Origin: Desulfomicrobium escambiense DSM 10707
GTDB taxonomy: Bacteria > Desulfobacterota > Desulfovibrionia > Desulfovibrionales > Desulfomicrobiaceae
NCBI RefSeq assembly: GCF_000428825.1
Contig: NZ_AUAR01000022.1
Span: forward strand, 1 to 64,000
DNA length: 64,000 bases
Direction of reading: 5' to 3'
In this document: piece after piece, positions 30,212 through 62,509 of the stretch
Numbering within the stretch: the first letter of the stretch is position 1
Layout of the letters: each line of letters starts with the position of its first letter
Translations under genes and position numbers: made by a program
Notes under the pieces: generated by a model
Seen by the model: only the letters and a program-made list of their open reading frames with translations
Databases searched by the model: none
Told to the model about the DNA's origin: nothing

Positions 30212-30397
30212 CTTCCGCCCCGCCTCAAGCGGTCCGTCGCGGACCGGGCAAGAGCCGTCGGCTGTCCGACCGAGCCAAGCACCATTTGCTCCCCGGCCGT
30301 CAAACGGTCAACGCGCCGCCCTCTGCCCGAAGCTCAAGGCCGGGAAGCATTACGAGGCCCTCAAGGAAGTTCCGGCAGTCCTTGCCCGGCCCGCGAC
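30212..30397 (+). repeat. Dispersed structured element, copy A
   Basis: This is one of three same-strand copies of an element of about 160-190 nt (others at 34675-34859 and 62321-62509). The closing helix pairs 30236-30252 with 30381-30397 (17 bp, one mismatch). Inside it is a small hairpin at 30257-30270 (GTCGG-CTGT-CCGAC), and CTGCCCGAA near 30322 can pair with TTCCGGCAG near 30370. The motif CATTACGAGGCC is shared by all copies. It is about 90% identical to copy B by eye. No conserved reading frame runs through it, because an indel shifts frames between A and B. Confidence 0.8.
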
Positions 30398-30533
30398 TCC
30401 CGGAAAAGACAGCTCATTATACTGATAATGCCCAATACCACTCCCTAGCATCACGCATTACCTTCTCCGCTACAAGAATGTTTGACGCCCTCAGAGACGG
30501 GGGCAGGACACTGCTACGCAGGAGGTCAAATTG

Positions 30534-31457
30534 ATGGAGGTCATGAATGCCTGCGGCGCGCTCCGACGTGTCGAAAACCCGGGTGCGCTTCTGCAGGAAA
30601 CCCGCGACAAAGGGTGCGCGTTCTGGCTGATTCTGGACCCCCTGTGTCACCAGGAGGCCCTGGCCCAGCTGTACGACAATGAGCCCGACACGGAAAAAAC
30701 CATCCTATTCCTGAAAACCACGCTGGCGGAATCAAGCGAGGTTTCACCCTGGCTTGCGGCCCTTTCCCTGAATTCCCCCATGGAGCGTTGGATCAACGAA
30801 TCCAAGGCATCAGGATGGGGGTTCTATTTCACTTCGGACGCCCCCTTCTCCGAAATACTCGCCCATCTGCGCAGCCTGGTCTTCATCAAGAGGGGTGAGA
30901 AACGGGTCATCTTTCGCTTTTGGGATGGACGCATACTTACACGCATCTGCCAAGGCATACCCGAGGACATCCCCATGCTGCTGGGGCCCATCCGCCGCAT
31001 CCTGACCCAGGACGAAGGGGACGGGTGGATCTGCATCGACAGGGACGGGGACGCGTACATGGAAGAAGCGCATCGTCCGGGAACGGTCCTGCCCAGCCCC
31101 TGGTACGCCTTCACGGACCGCCACGACCGGCTTTTCCACGGCAAGCGCCCCGGGATCGTCGCCAGGAACATCGTCGAGTCCCTGTTCAATGAAAAAATGG
31201 AGCATGGCCTCGCCCTGCCACCAAACGAGGCGCTCTCGGCCTTTGTCGCCCGCCACGTGAACCGTGGTCTGGCCCTGGGGCTTTGGGGGTTGGAGGCCCT
31301 GGAACTCTTTGTCCGCTGCTGCCTGCGTCACGGCGAGTGTTTCCCCGACGCGCAGGCCATGCCGGTCCTTTCCCCCCTTGCCCGCACACCGCTCGACGAG
31401 GACGCGGCCGTGGCCGTCATGCGCCGCTTCTGCAACCAGGGAGGTTCCCATGTCTGA
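30534..31457 (+). CDS. DUF4123-domain protein, type VI effector adaptor
   Basis: This 307-aa protein has a DUF4123 domain in its N-terminal half: FWLILDPLCHQEALAQLY, SPWLAAL, GWGFYFTSDAPFSEILAHLRSLVFI and VIFRFWDGRILTRI. DUF4123 proteins (also called Tec or TAP-1) load effectors onto VgrG spikes of the type VI secretion system. Its position at the head of a lipase-immunity cluster supports this, although no vgrG, hcp or PAAR gene is in the window. AGGAGG lies 8 nt before the ATG. Its end overlaps the next gene. Confidence 0.82.
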   Translation: MEVMNACGALRRVENPGALLQETRDKGCAFWLILDPLCHQEALAQLYDNEPDTEKTILFLKTTLAESSEVSPWLAALSLNSPMERWINESKASGWGFYFTSDAPFSEILAHLRSLVFIKRGEKRVIFRFWDGRILTRICQGIPEDIPMLLGPIRRILTQDEGDGWICIDRDGDAYMEEAHRPGTVLPSPWYAFTDRHDRLFHGKRPGIVARNIVESLFNEKMEHGLALPPNEALSAFVARHVNRGLALGLWGLEALELFVRCCLRHGECFPDAQAMPVLSPLARTPLDEDAAVAVMRRFCNQGGSHV

Positions 31458-31767
31458 CCCAGGAATGTGTTCTGTCTGCCCCAAGTTGAAACGCGTCGGC
31501 TTTGCCCTGGAGACACAGGGCAGCGAGCCGCCCGTGCCCCTGCCAGGAGGGGTAATACATGCCTTCAGTGTCGCGGCAGAGGGCGAACGGCAGGAACTGG
31601 GCCTGTTCCAGACCGTGGTCTGGCTGGGCCCCGAGGACGACCCGCAGGCCACGACCGAAGGCCATCCCTGGCGTGACTACACCTACGCCCAGACCACGAC
31701 GGTGCACCAGACAGACGACCTCGATTACATCCCCATACTGCCGCGCGGAAAAGGCGGCCGGCCATGA
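31450..31767 (+). CDS. Small unknown protein in the type VI cargo module
   Basis: This 105-aa product is not recognised. It begins MSDPGMCSVCPKLKRVGF with a CSVC pair, then LPGGVIHAFSV and a C-terminal TTVHQTDDLDYIPILPRG. There is no signal peptide or membrane segment. Overlaps of 8 nt with the DUF4123 gene and 4 nt with the lipoprotein gene show that it belongs to the operon. It could be a second chaperone, or a spike-tip or delivery domain that is encoded separately. Confidence 0.75.
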   Translation: MSDPGMCSVCPKLKRVGFALETQGSEPPVPLPGGVIHAFSVAAEGERQELGLFQTVVWLGPEDDPQATTEGHPWRDYTYAQTTTVHQTDDLDYIPILPRGKGGRP

Positions 31768-32855
31768 CCCGGGGCCGAACAGCCCCCCGCAGCGGCTCCG
31801 CCGTCAGCGGAAGCCCCATATCCCGTGCGCAGCGTTGCGCACTGTGCTTCCTTGCCATCCTGACACTTCTTCTCGCCGGAGGTTGCAAAACCATGCAGCA
31901 CACCACAACAAGCCAGCCCCCCCTGCCTGTGCCCCTCTACCCCGTGGGACGCTTCCTCTTCCCCGTGCCTCAGGGGCTGGAGTTCCAGGGCAGGATCATA
32001 AACATCAACGATATGTCCATCGAAGAAACGGACTGGAACTCCGGGGACCGCGCAAAGCAGTTTCGGGCCCTCTGGGAACCGGTCCGCGACGAGGCCAGGA
32101 AGCACTACGACGTGTACAAGAACACGCCCGTCGTCCGAGGCGGGTTCGTCCAGGAGGACGTCAGCGAACACTTCGGCCACCCGGCCGTCCTGCTCTGCTA
32201 CTCGGCCCAAAACGGCGCGCACTGGATCGACACGTTCGTGGCCTTGCCGGACTGGATCCTGCGCATCAAGGAGGAAACTGCCTATGAGATAGGCAAGGAA
32301 TGCTTGGGCGACCTGAAAGGGACGACCCTGGACTTTTTCAGGCACTACCGCACGGACAGGTCAGATCTCCCGGCGGACATGTTCTGGACGGGGAGGGGGT
32401 GGATGCGGGGGATGAAGACATGGGACGAGAGCGCAGATGCCTACGCACGGCGCGAAGAGACGGATACTGGGCCGAAAATATCGCTGAATCTAAGGACGTA
32501 CACGATCTCGACTCCTGATGAACCGGCCAAATCGATCAAATCGATACGAAAAATTCTTGATGGAAATAAGATCGATCTCAAAATCCTGCGTTCACGCCAC
32601 CGCACCTTCGAGGGCATGCCCGGTCTGGAGGAAGTCGTTATCCTTTCCGGGCATGAATGCGGCACACCAAAATCGACACTCTTTGCCAAGTGGGCCATCG
32701 AAGCAGAAGCCAAAAACCCGCAAAGACCTACGATCTACCTGGAGATGAGCTGCGACGCAGCAGCTCAGGACGATGCTTTGCGCTTCTGGGACGCGTCAAT
32801 AAATAATTTTATATCCATTCAAGCATGGCACGCCAAGATGAGAGGAGGAAGATAA
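31764..32855 (+). CDS. Tli4-like type VI immunity lipoprotein
   Basis: This is a 363-aa lipoprotein with signal segment CALCFLAILTLLLAGGC, where the Cys of LAGGC would be lipidated. The mature part resembles the Tli4 family of immunity proteins for Tle4-type phospholipase effectors (N-terminal GRFLFPVPQGLEFQG; C-terminal EGMPGLEEVVILS and RFWDASINNFISIQ). It would protect the periplasm from the lipase encoded next. The C-terminal third is noticeably AT-richer than its neighbours. Stop and next start overlap as TAATG. Confidence 0.78.
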   Translation: MTRGRTAPRSGSAVSGSPISRAQRCALCFLAILTLLLAGGCKTMQHTTTSQPPLPVPLYPVGRFLFPVPQGLEFQGRIININDMSIEETDWNSGDRAKQFRALWEPVRDEARKHYDVYKNTPVVRGGFVQEDVSEHFGHPAVLLCYSAQNGAHWIDTFVALPDWILRIKEETAYEIGKECLGDLKGTTLDFFRHYRTDRSDLPADMFWTGRGWMRGMKTWDESADAYARREETDTGPKISLNLRTYTISTPDEPAKSIKSIRKILDGNKIDLKILRSRHRTFEGMPGLEEVVILSGHECGTPKSTLFAKWAIEAEAKNPQRPTIYLEMSCDAAAQDDALRFWDASINNFISIQAWHAKMRGGR

Positions 32856-34573
32856 TGCGCAACAATACACCCAAAGTACCCTACGACGATCCACTGCGAC
32901 ACAGGAAGACCCCGCGGGAAATGCTTAAGGAACCGATTTCCACAGAATGCGAGGCCTGCAGGGACAACATCATCCAGGTCCTGCGTGACACCATCGCAGT
33001 CATCTTCGTGCCCGGCATCATGGGCTCAAAGCTGAAAAATCCCAAGAATGCTCCCGCTTGGAATCCGGACGACCTCTCGTTCATGTCGGGTACATACATG
33101 TGGGCAAAGCCAAAAGATCGCTACAACCTTCTCATCAAAAATAAACCAAGCCTCTTGAACGAGATCACCGAGAAACACATCAACTACCCCAAAGCCGAAG
33201 AACGCGGCTGGGGCAGCGTGGCCTGGAGCTTTTACGGGGACCTGCTGACCTCCATCCAGGACTGGGCCACGCCCCTCAAGGTGCTGCTGGACCTGCCCGT
33301 CTACGCCTTCGGCTACAACTGGCTGGAGTCAAACCGCGTGTCCGGGGAGAAGCTGCGCGAATTCATCCACACCATCAAGGCCGAAAAGGTCATCCTCGTG
33401 ACCCACTCCATGGGCGGTCTGGTGGCGCGCTGGGCCTTGGGAGGCGATGAAGCCGGGGACGTCGCAGCAAAGGTCCTCGGCGTCGTCCATGGCGCGCAGC
33501 CCGTGCACGGCGCCCCGGTGGCTTACCGGCGCATGATCGCCGGGCAGGAGGTGGACGGCTTCTTCAACATCCTGGGCATGCTCGGCGCCAAGGTTCTCGG
33601 GTCCGACGGCCCGTCCATCACCGCCATCTTCCCCCACGCCGAGAGCGCCCTGGAACTCCTGCCCAGCCAGCATTACCGCACCAACGACGGCAGGCGGGAA
33701 TGGCTGCACGTCCAGGATCCAGGCTCGCCGGACGGGCTTCAGTCCTACCCCAAGGGCGACCCGTACCGGGAAATCTACGCCAGAAGCAGCCATCGCGACT
33801 TCTGGGGCATGATCCACGGCGGCTGGTTCCAGCCGGACCCTCTGGAGGAAGGGGCCTTGGGCCGCGTCTTCCATGGCGAGGCGACAGAGGCGGATCCCGA
33901 CTCAGAAATTCGGGCCAGGATATTTCTGAACAGGCTGGAGGCGGTTCGGAGTTTTCACGCCACGATCGGCGACTACAGCCATCCGCGCACCATGCAGCTC
34001 TTCAGCAGCGGCGGCCAGGACACGTGTTCGGAAGTGAGCTGGCTGGCCAGGGACGTGACCCTGACCGTGGCGCGCCGCCCCGGCGACATGCGCGGGGACA
34101 GGGACATGAGGGACAGGTATTTCGCCCTGCGGCACATCCCGGGCATCCTGGAACGCAGCCGGGGCGAATACAGCGAGGTCCGCTGGGTCGAGGCCGACGG
34201 ATCCCACGGAAAAACGGTGCCCTGGGACACGCCCTTTGCGGAACTGGACAGAGGAATCAGGGAAGGACGGCGGCTCATCCTGCTACGAGTGTCAGATTTC
34301 GGCGACACGGAACCGGGCATGGCCGACACATGCAACCTGGGCGACGGCACGGTGCCGCTCAGTTCAGCGACAGGCCTCCAGCCGGATTGCACCACCTGGG
34401 GCAACGCAACGCACACCCTTCCGTTCTGGCAAAACGCTTGGCACTCCATGATCGCCACCGGTTGTCCCACAAACGCGAACCATTCGGGATTCTTCGACCA
34501 GAGTTCCATCCAGGCCACCATCAACACCATCCACAACCTCTGTCTGGGATGGCTCCGGGAAGAGTACGACTAA
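32855..34573 (+). CDS. Alpha/beta-hydrolase lipase, probable type VI effector (Tle4-like)
   Basis: This 572-aa protein has a PGAP1/LCAT-like hydrolase fold. VIFVPGIMGSKLKNP is an oxyanion-side strand, VILVTHSMGGLVARW contains the GxSxG nucleophile (Ser185), and LGDGTVPLSSATG and several late His residues (THTLPFWQNAWH) can complete the triad. There is no signal peptide, as expected for a type VI cargo. With the DUF4123 adaptor and Tli4-like lipoprotein it forms an adaptor-immunity-effector set. The ATG at 32855 has GAGGAGG upstream. The first 110 codons are AT-rich. Confidence 0.8.
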   Translation: MRNNTPKVPYDDPLRHRKTPREMLKEPISTECEACRDNIIQVLRDTIAVIFVPGIMGSKLKNPKNAPAWNPDDLSFMSGTYMWAKPKDRYNLLIKNKPSLLNEITEKHINYPKAEERGWGSVAWSFYGDLLTSIQDWATPLKVLLDLPVYAFGYNWLESNRVSGEKLREFIHTIKAEKVILVTHSMGGLVARWALGGDEAGDVAAKVLGVVHGAQPVHGAPVAYRRMIAGQEVDGFFNILGMLGAKVLGSDGPSITAIFPHAESALELLPSQHYRTNDGRREWLHVQDPGSPDGLQSYPKGDPYREIYARSSHRDFWGMIHGGWFQPDPLEEGALGRVFHGEATEADPDSEIRARIFLNRLEAVRSFHATIGDYSHPRTMQLFSSGGQDTCSEVSWLARDVTLTVARRPGDMRGDRDMRDRYFALRHIPGILERSRGEYSEVRWVEADGSHGKTVPWDTPFAELDRGIREGRRLILLRVSDFGDTEPGMADTCNLGDGTVPLSSATGLQPDCTTWGNATHTLPFWQNAWHSMIATGCPTNANHSGFFDQSSIQATINTIHNLCLGWLREEYD

Positions 34574-34619
34574 AAGCACGGACTGCTTTCCTGCGCTGGA
34601 CGATGGGACGAAGGAGATT

Positions 34620-34649
34620 GGAGTGCAGGGGGTGCACCCCCTGCACTCC
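34620..34649. repeat. 30-bp perfect palindrome ending in CTGCACTCC
   Basis: The two 15-bp halves are exact reverse complements (GGAGTGCAGGGGGTG on the left). The element shares the G-run/C-run and CTGCAC ending of the GCCTCCGGCGGG repeat family. It precedes structured copy B just as the degenerate repeat at 30151 precedes copy A. Between the lipase stop and this site there is also a short AAAGCA / TGCTTT hairpin (34574-34590). Confidence 0.75.
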
Positions 34650-34674
34650 ATGCACCTCTTTCTTTCTCCACGCA

Positions 34675-34859
34675 CTTCCGCCCCGTCTCAAGCGGTTCGT
34701 CGCGGGCCGGGCAAGGGCTGTCGGCTGTCCGACCGAGCCAGGCATCGTTTGCTTCCCGACCGTCAACCGCTCAACGATCCCCCTCTGCCCGAAGCTCAAG
34801 ACCGGGAGGCATTACGAGGCCCGCGAGGAAGTTCCGGCAGGCCTTGCCCGGCCCGCGAC
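34675..34859 (+). repeat. Dispersed structured element, copy B
   Basis: This copy is the best-preserved of the A/B pair. The closing helix pairs 34699-34716 with 34842-34859 perfectly over 18 bp. The inner hairpin is at 34720-34733 (GTCGG-CTGT-CCGAC). The conserved interior includes CTGTCCGACCGA, GGCATCGTTTG, CCGTCAACCGC and CATTACGAGGCC. It lies between the convergent lipase and selB genes on the same strand as copy A, so A and B form direct repeats around the type VI module. Confidence 0.8.
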
Positions 34860-34890
34860 GGATCGCGACTCCCTCCCACCAAAATGAAAA

Positions 34891-62320: not shown

Positions 62321-62509
62321 CTTCCGCGCCAAGCGAGTCCGGGTCGGGGCGTTGCGGGCGCGTCGACTGTCCGACCGAACTAGGCATCGTTTGGTTTCCC
62401 GTCGTCAACCGCCCCGAGCACAACCTCTGCGCCCTGCACGCGACGGGGAACCATTACGAGGCCGGCGAGGAAGTTTCGACGTGCCCGCAACGCCCCGACC
62501 CGGACTCGC
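62321..62509 (+). repeat. Dispersed structured element, copy C (diverged stem)
   Basis: The closing helix pairs 62333-62359 with 62483-62509 perfectly over 27 bp. Its sequence is unrelated to the helix of copies A and B, yet the interior keeps CTGTCCGACCGA, AGGCATCGTTTG, TTCCCG, CGTCAACCGC and CATTACGAGGCC. The small hairpin is GTCG-ACTGTC-CGAC (62362-62375). Conserved inside with a covarying stem is the signature of a selected fold. Confidence 0.82.

Follow-up and report, generated by a model that had tools for sequence, protein, structure and literature searches.

The window that we analyzed comprises 64,000 nucleotides (contig C18, positions 1 to 64000) of the Desulfomicrobium escambiense DSM 10707 genome, a 3.78-Mb assembly of 38 contigs. 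Three copies of an intergenic element, designated A, B, and C, were found on the plus strand at 30212-30397, 34675-34859, and 62321-62509, as given in a preliminary description of this DNA, and the interior words quoted there were all present. Within the window, exact CTGTCCGACCGA and exact CATTACGAGGCC were confined to these copies. A, B, and C are members of a family of intergenic hairpins that measure about 180 to 200 bases, and their parts are arranged as follows.

30236-30261, + strand: copy A, 5′ arm of the closing helix P1, 26 nt, partly decayed
30262-30371, + strand: copy A, core, second helix P2, and cap
30372-30397, + strand: copy A, 3′ arm of P1
34692-34724, + strand: copy B, 5′ arm of P1, 33 nt
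34725-34833, + strand: copy B, core, P2, and cap
34834-34866, + strand: copy B, 3′ arm of P1
62333-62366, + strand: copy C, 5′ arm of P1, 34 nt (fold of 62321-62509; boundaries common to all copies)
62367-62391, + strand: copy C, 5′ strand of the core, CTGTCCGACCGAACTAGGCATCGTT (invariant or nearly invariant alignment columns; 0.97 identity at orthologous sites)
62393-62452, + strand: copy C, second variable helix P2 (62393-62404 with 62440-62452) and cap (fold and alignments)
62456-62475, + strand: copy C, 3′ strand of the core, ACGAGGCCGGCGAGGAAGTT (conserved alignment columns and orthologous identity)
62476-62509, + strand: copy C, 3′ arm of P1 (fold)

Copy C folded with −124.9 kcal/mol (z = −10.2), a value that was equaled by 0 of 200 shuffled sequences. 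The ends of the copies had been described as pairing over 27 bp in C and over 17 to 18 bp in A and B. The pairing itself was confirmed, but these lengths proved too low: the closing helix spans ~34 bp in C, 33 bp with a few faults in B, and 26 bp in A, where it is partly decayed. With 130 bits, copy A was the weakest full-length copy in its own genome. The region between A and B (30534-34573) contains a probable type VI secretion lipase effector/immunity module (DUF4123, Tli4_C, LCAT-like), and hairpin A, this module, and hairpin B (30236-34866) sit together between hrpB and selB. A close relative (G014; 94 to 98% protein identity) carries two hairpins at the hrpB/selB junction and no effector/immunity genes between them.

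Every copy forms one hairpin, built from a closing helix (P1), an asymmetric core, a second helix (P2), and a free cap. The order of the parts is 5′ flank, P1 arm, core CTGTCYGACYGAGCCAGGCATCGTT, P2 (~12 bp), cap (~40 bases), core ACGAGGCCSGCGARGRAGTT, and P1 arm, with the 5′ flank often terminating in CTCAA. P1 measured ~33 bp, and its end fell in the same register in almost every copy. The core (CTGTCYGACYGAGCC/GGCGARGRAGTTY) was invariant and both helices varied in sequence; mean identity among the copies of the own genome was 90% in the core and 45% in the P1 arms. Judging from its sequence, the core would consist, in this order, of GCC/GGC, a tandem G-A/A-G, two Watson-Crick pairs (CY/RG), another tandem G-A, and an asymmetric CTGTCY/GTTY loop. 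The 5′ arm of P1 is G/T-rich in Desulfomicrobium (G 0.46, T 0.19, A 0.07; 62333-62366 in copy C), and the 3′ arm is C/A-rich (C 0.43, A 0.17, T 0.08; 62476-62509 in copy C), a composition that limits pairing within an arm. A coding function was ruled out by a check of frames and lengths on 107 copies, as the preliminary description had concluded from fewer: the best single frame was open in at most 69 of them, and the lengths were mixed modulo 3.

When the own genome was searched at the DNA level, about 20 related places were detected, and a covariance model built from 20 of them recovered 21 copies. These 21 copies were found at E values of ≤1e-8, so the similarity of A, B, and C is not accidental. 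In the 20 full copies, 95% of the cells were paired and 32 of the 47 pairs showed two-sided changes, while 0 of 500 shuffles were as good and no shuffled or slid control came close. When 58 copies from four families were aligned, 43 of the 47 pairs varied on both sides, with a covariation score of 0.802 compared to 0.209 for shuffled and at most 0.163 for slid controls; this alignment was fitted to the covariance model and is biased towards it, whereas the 20-sequence MAFFT alignment is independent of the model. Covariation also occurred within the core, where columns 34/130 of the A2 alignment held nine C-G and nine U-A pairs. We consider the hairpin structure of the family nearly certain.

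The mismatches in P1 indicated which strand folds. With G-T and A-C mismatches scored alike, 100 Desulfomicrobium copies contained 189 G-T and 28 A-C mismatches on the core strand (p about 1e-30), and 55 copies of the f4 type contained 81 and 21, respectively. Between orthologous copies, one-sided changes created or removed G-T in 25 cases and A-C in 4, and a further 20 changes were two-sided Watson-Crick replacements. The flanks of these copies displayed no C-T excess on the core strand (C-T, 0.028 per site; A-G, 0.036 per site); mutation bias therefore does not explain the G-T excess in P1, which argues that the core strand was selected for folding. An early impression from 20 sequences that G-U and A-C were equally rare in the outer helix was overturned by 94 to 100 elements. 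P2 lacked the G-T/A-C asymmetry (11:9), and the complement folds nearly as well as the core strand (−62.0 versus −65.7 kcal/mol with DNA parameters). The proposal of selection on a folded single strand thus gained strong support from the covariation in 58 copies, the compensatory changes at orthologous sites, and the one-strand excess of G-T over A-C. Selection keeps the core strand foldable, and the core internal loop is the conserved part of the element.

The hairpin was present in about 20 to 67 copies per genome in several sulfate reducers from several families. Its copy number in Desulfomicrobium was patchy, with 0 copies in five genomes and 41 to 52 in six others; G024, from another family, contained 65 to 67. 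A phylum scan, whose negatives are weak because 7 candidates were scored per genome, also revealed the hairpin in family f53. The f53 relatives (L210 to L216) are AT-rich; AAATTTTATACTG is an example of their closing arms, and their outer flanks are constant. The pattern CTGTYTGAGC N2-30 GCGAGTTTTT, which represents a short form, was matched 27 times, in 7 of 297 genomes, and not once when reversed. Most short forms lie within longer hairpins whose outer stems differ yet are complementary; two matches (L219 and L220) look like chance. In family f44 (L221 to L245), multicopy short-form hairpins are built on the core CTGTYTGAGCRAAGCGAGTTTTT; their outer stems covary, and GGCGGCCTTTCTTTTGCTTACTT is conserved as a 3′ tail. 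Common descent of the short and long forms is plausible.

Many copies have long resided at fixed gene junctions. In 38 cases, a cluster of neighbor genes was shared by elements from at least two species. The pepA junction, at which copy C is located, carries the hairpin in G000, G007, and G009 and two hairpins in G010, and the remainder at this junction in G002 reads like a hairpin deletion. Mean identity over 46 orthologous pairs, which are not independent of each other, was 0.97 and 0.92 for the core, 0.90/0.89 for P2, 0.84 for P1, 0.67 for the cap, and 0.59 for the flanks (shuffled flank, 0.47). Some copies were inverted in place between species (L031 versus L055/L058), which may reflect recombination between the arms.

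In some relatives, the copies are part of miniature transposons. Many of those from G035 and family f4 are bounded either by GTAACTAYTCAGC ends and 8-bp duplications or by CAGGGCAAATTTGTTCTCAC ends and 10-bp duplications, and terminal inverted repeats of the kind that defines miniature inverted-repeat transposable elements (MITEs) were found in copies from f4 and f2 relatives. The target duplications were exact, comprising the 8-bp sequences ATCTATTC, TCTGAAAG, GAAGACAC, and TGCGCTTT and the 10-bp sequences TTCCAGGCAC, CTCCTTGCAA, and GAACCATCCC. Based on the end motifs and the duplication lengths, we take the former ends to be IS66-like and the latter to be ISAs1-like. A third end pair, CCTGGATCCGTGAAAATTGA, was observed in G027 with probable 6-bp duplications, read by eye. 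The preliminary description had listed a nonautonomous element moved in trans among its candidates; this is supported for the relatives, where the hairpin lies in miniature elements bounded by inverted repeats and target duplications, but in Desulfomicrobium, no transposon ends were found and only scattered, chance-like inverted repeats occurred in 15 of 107 copies. A, B, and C were therefore not filed as MITEs. The family further differs from a MITE in that the same hairpin occurs in several frames. The ends were mapped in G024, G029, and G033. In G029, ~80 other miniature elements, which are ordinary MITEs, have the same IS66-like GTAACTAYTCAGC ends, many of them with exact 8-bp duplications, but enclose different long-hairpin interiors (L246 to L265, from G029/G033), e.g., CCGATT repeats or palindromes of the GGATTCCCGCCTTCGCGGGAATGAC type. 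Tandem arrays of the hairpin were found in G026 (4.3 units of 226 bp, 96% identical; L150, 9421-10388) and in G010 (2.7 × 296 bp).

The orientation of the hairpins, which did not enter the preliminary interpretation, follows replication rather than transcription. The leading strand is usually the G-rich one, and with strand polarity assigned from GC skew, 37 of 42 copies (37:5) in the complete genome G015 (3,942,657 bp) and 41 of 51 copies (41:10) in the complete genome G010 were located on the C-rich (lagging-sequence) strand of their replichore. Together, one replication strand carries 78 of the 93 copies (61:15 if each gap and orientation is counted once), and the switches in element strand coincide with the GC-skew switches in both genomes. 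The skew of the core-strand flanks was negative for 94 of 107 Desulfomicrobium copies and for 8 of 8 copies in G026/G027, as well as for 20 of 31 in f4 (20:11, not significant), 4 of 7 in f53, and 18 of 27 short forms. In the census of G015 and G010, tandem gaps between lagging genes contained 14 sense and 3 antisense elements, and those between leading genes contained 5 sense and 16 antisense elements. The overall ratio for tandem gaps was 19:19, and replication, not transcription, therefore sets the orientation.

No Rfam 15 model reached its gathering threshold in the window or in 8 loci, and the best matches below the threshold look like chance; this supports the suggestion of a new family. 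Searches of phages, plasmids, and IMG/VR with the Desulfomicrobium core gave no match. A literature search returned no description of the hairpin family, and the D. baculatum genome paper does not mention such repeats.

We tentatively favor, with a probability of about 0.4, a replication-oriented single-strand DNA hairpin site that was spread by miniature transposons. One DNA strand would form the hairpin when a fork passes or stalls, and the core internal loop, with its two tandem G-A pairs around two Watson-Crick pairs, would be recognized by a protein whose substrate is hairpin or single-stranded DNA, possibly a nuclease or a factor of restart, priming, or recombination. The stems would merely present the core loop and could drift as long as changes are compensated. 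Spreading would occur by replication-coupled insertion of miniature elements mobilized in trans; in Desulfomicrobium, the transposon ends would by now be unrecognizable and the hairpins would persist through their function in place. The folding strand, being the C-rich lagging-sequence strand, is the leading-strand template, and thus a simple lagging-template hairpin does not fit; a single-strand DNA transposon acting on the lagging template would likewise predict folding of the opposite strand. No recognizing protein was found. The DNA reading is weakened by the tolerance of G-U pairs, which suits RNA better than DNA, by the symmetric mismatches of P2, and by an orientation bias that is not significant in f4 and unclear in f53 (4:3). 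The strongest rival, somewhat less probable in our judgment, is an RNA element whose genes have kept the orientation of insertion. Here, the core strand would be transcribed by read-through or from an unseen promoter, fold into a rod, be bound via its internal loop, and exert its effect at the level of RNA stability, RNA processing, or regulation, a role suggested for ERIC hairpins; the orientation would be a leftover of insertion or a consequence of palindrome instability in the opposite orientation. The one-strand G-U tolerance and the conserved internal loop agree with this explanation, as does the intergenic position, mostly at gene 3′ ends (convergent gaps are favored, with 34 of 76 elements compared to a baseline of 24 of 173; divergent gaps are avoided, with 4 of 76 compared to 53 of 173). 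ERIC hairpins of Yersinia have been reported to regulate their neighbors as RNA (PMC2267715). An mRNA-borne role should produce a sense bias; the ratio of 36 sense to 14 antisense elements in a redundant sample pointed in this direction but was abandoned once the complete two-genome census gave 19:19. Moreover, no promoter- or terminator-like site was detected at A, B, or C, the neighboring genes (mixed housekeeping and metabolism) form no regulon and have no common function, and an RNA role alone leaves the orientation unexplained.

The hairpins could also be purely selfish miniature elements with replication-coupled insertion, whose fold serves mobility alone and whose old copies are passengers. 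The terminal inverted repeats of relatives, with their exact duplications of 8 and 10 bp, the tandem arrays, the patchy distribution in the genus, with 0 to 52 copies per genome, and the orientation bias are all in line with this idea. We nevertheless judge it unlikely, since core identity stays at 0.92 to 0.97 in old copies at shared junctions compared to 0.59 in the flanks, stems are maintained in place by compensatory change, and no ends were found in Desulfomicrobium. Template-switch correction of palindromes during replication is known in principle and would produce perfect arms without any selection, and the long, nearly perfect, and sequence-free closing helix would suit it. However, this process is strand symmetric unless biased and hardly accounts for a G-T to A-C ratio of 189:28 without a matching flank bias; as it also leaves the invariant core and the covarying core pairs (columns 34/130) unexplained, it is very improbable. 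We give even less credence to an orphan guide RNA of an IscB/TnpB-type system (HEARO or omega RNA), which had been listed among the candidates. Like such RNAs, the hairpin is a dispersed, structured, RNA-like element tied to mobile DNA, lying within transposon ends in relatives. It differs from them in lacking an Rfam match and IscB and in its fold: HEARO gave no match even at an E value of ≤10 (or 5) among relaxed Rfam matches, IscB (NF040563) exceeded the cutoff in 0 of 11 hairpin-bearing genomes, eight Desulfomicrobium genomes lacked any IscB match, and the fold is a single rod-like hairpin rather than a constant scaffold with an exposed variable guide. RVT_1 was not found in G000, G001, G007, G014, or G015, and a reverse-transcriptase partner (retron, group II intron, or diversity-generating retroelement) was rejected because no reverse transcriptase was found either in the own genome or in several others that are rich in copies. 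A Y1/RAYT partner lacks support, given that Y1 genes were not found in G014 (28 copies) and are present in G004 (0 copies). A hairpin lay near a Y1 gene at one fetched Y1 locus only (L281, 2833-4146; G001:C18), where two hairpins are located just 3′ of a Y1-type transposase gene. REP/RAYT systems are characterized by a 20- to 40-bp palindrome, a GTAG tag, and a RAYT gene flanked by repeats, and the hairpin described here, with ~200 bases, falls outside this class.

To our knowledge, neither replication orientation nor transposon-framed forms are known for bcr1, which together with ERIC is closest in kind to the Desulfomicrobium hairpin. ERIC sequences of enterobacteria and Vibrio are intergenic, about 130 bp long, and present in tens to hundreds of copies, with a long stem-loop and miniature-element character (PMC2267715), and bcr1 of the Bacillus cereus group is an intergenic repeat of about 150 bp listed as folding to a shared structure (PMC2267715). 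Both were compared by description, without an Rfam link in the case of ERIC, and the descriptions also set them apart. ERIC has a recognizable sequence and terminal inverted repeats, whereas only the internal loop of the Desulfomicrobium hairpin is constant, both of its helices are free in sequence, and its orientation tracks replication; bcr1 differs in its host group. Likeness to IS66- and ISAs1-type MITEs is seen in f4 and G035, where the hairpin lies between such ends with 8- or 10-bp duplications. The conservation pattern and the orientation of the hairpin are unusual.

Extending the favored single-strand DNA reading, the hairpins might be oriented sites distributed chromosome-wide, with a fixed internal-loop motif, displayed on one strand with respect to the replication fork, for a dedicated fork restart, priming, or hairpin-processing factor, i.e., a structure-based counterpart of Chi or KOPS that is spread and replaced by miniature transposons. 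We regard this wider proposal as doubtful; if it were true, this class would also include the short forms CTGTYTGAGC..GCGAGTTTTT of distant families. Structured intergenic repeats are usually conserved in sequence, and structure and mobility are therefore hard to separate. Conservation is inverted here, with a small fixed internal loop and two long helices that are free in sequence but paired, at the same junctions across species and on one replication strand. The family thereby constitutes a clean natural experiment on strand-specific hairpin folding in genomes, and cultivable Desulfomicrobium species with about 40 to 65 copies allow the question of whether DNA or RNA is the folded form to be addressed.
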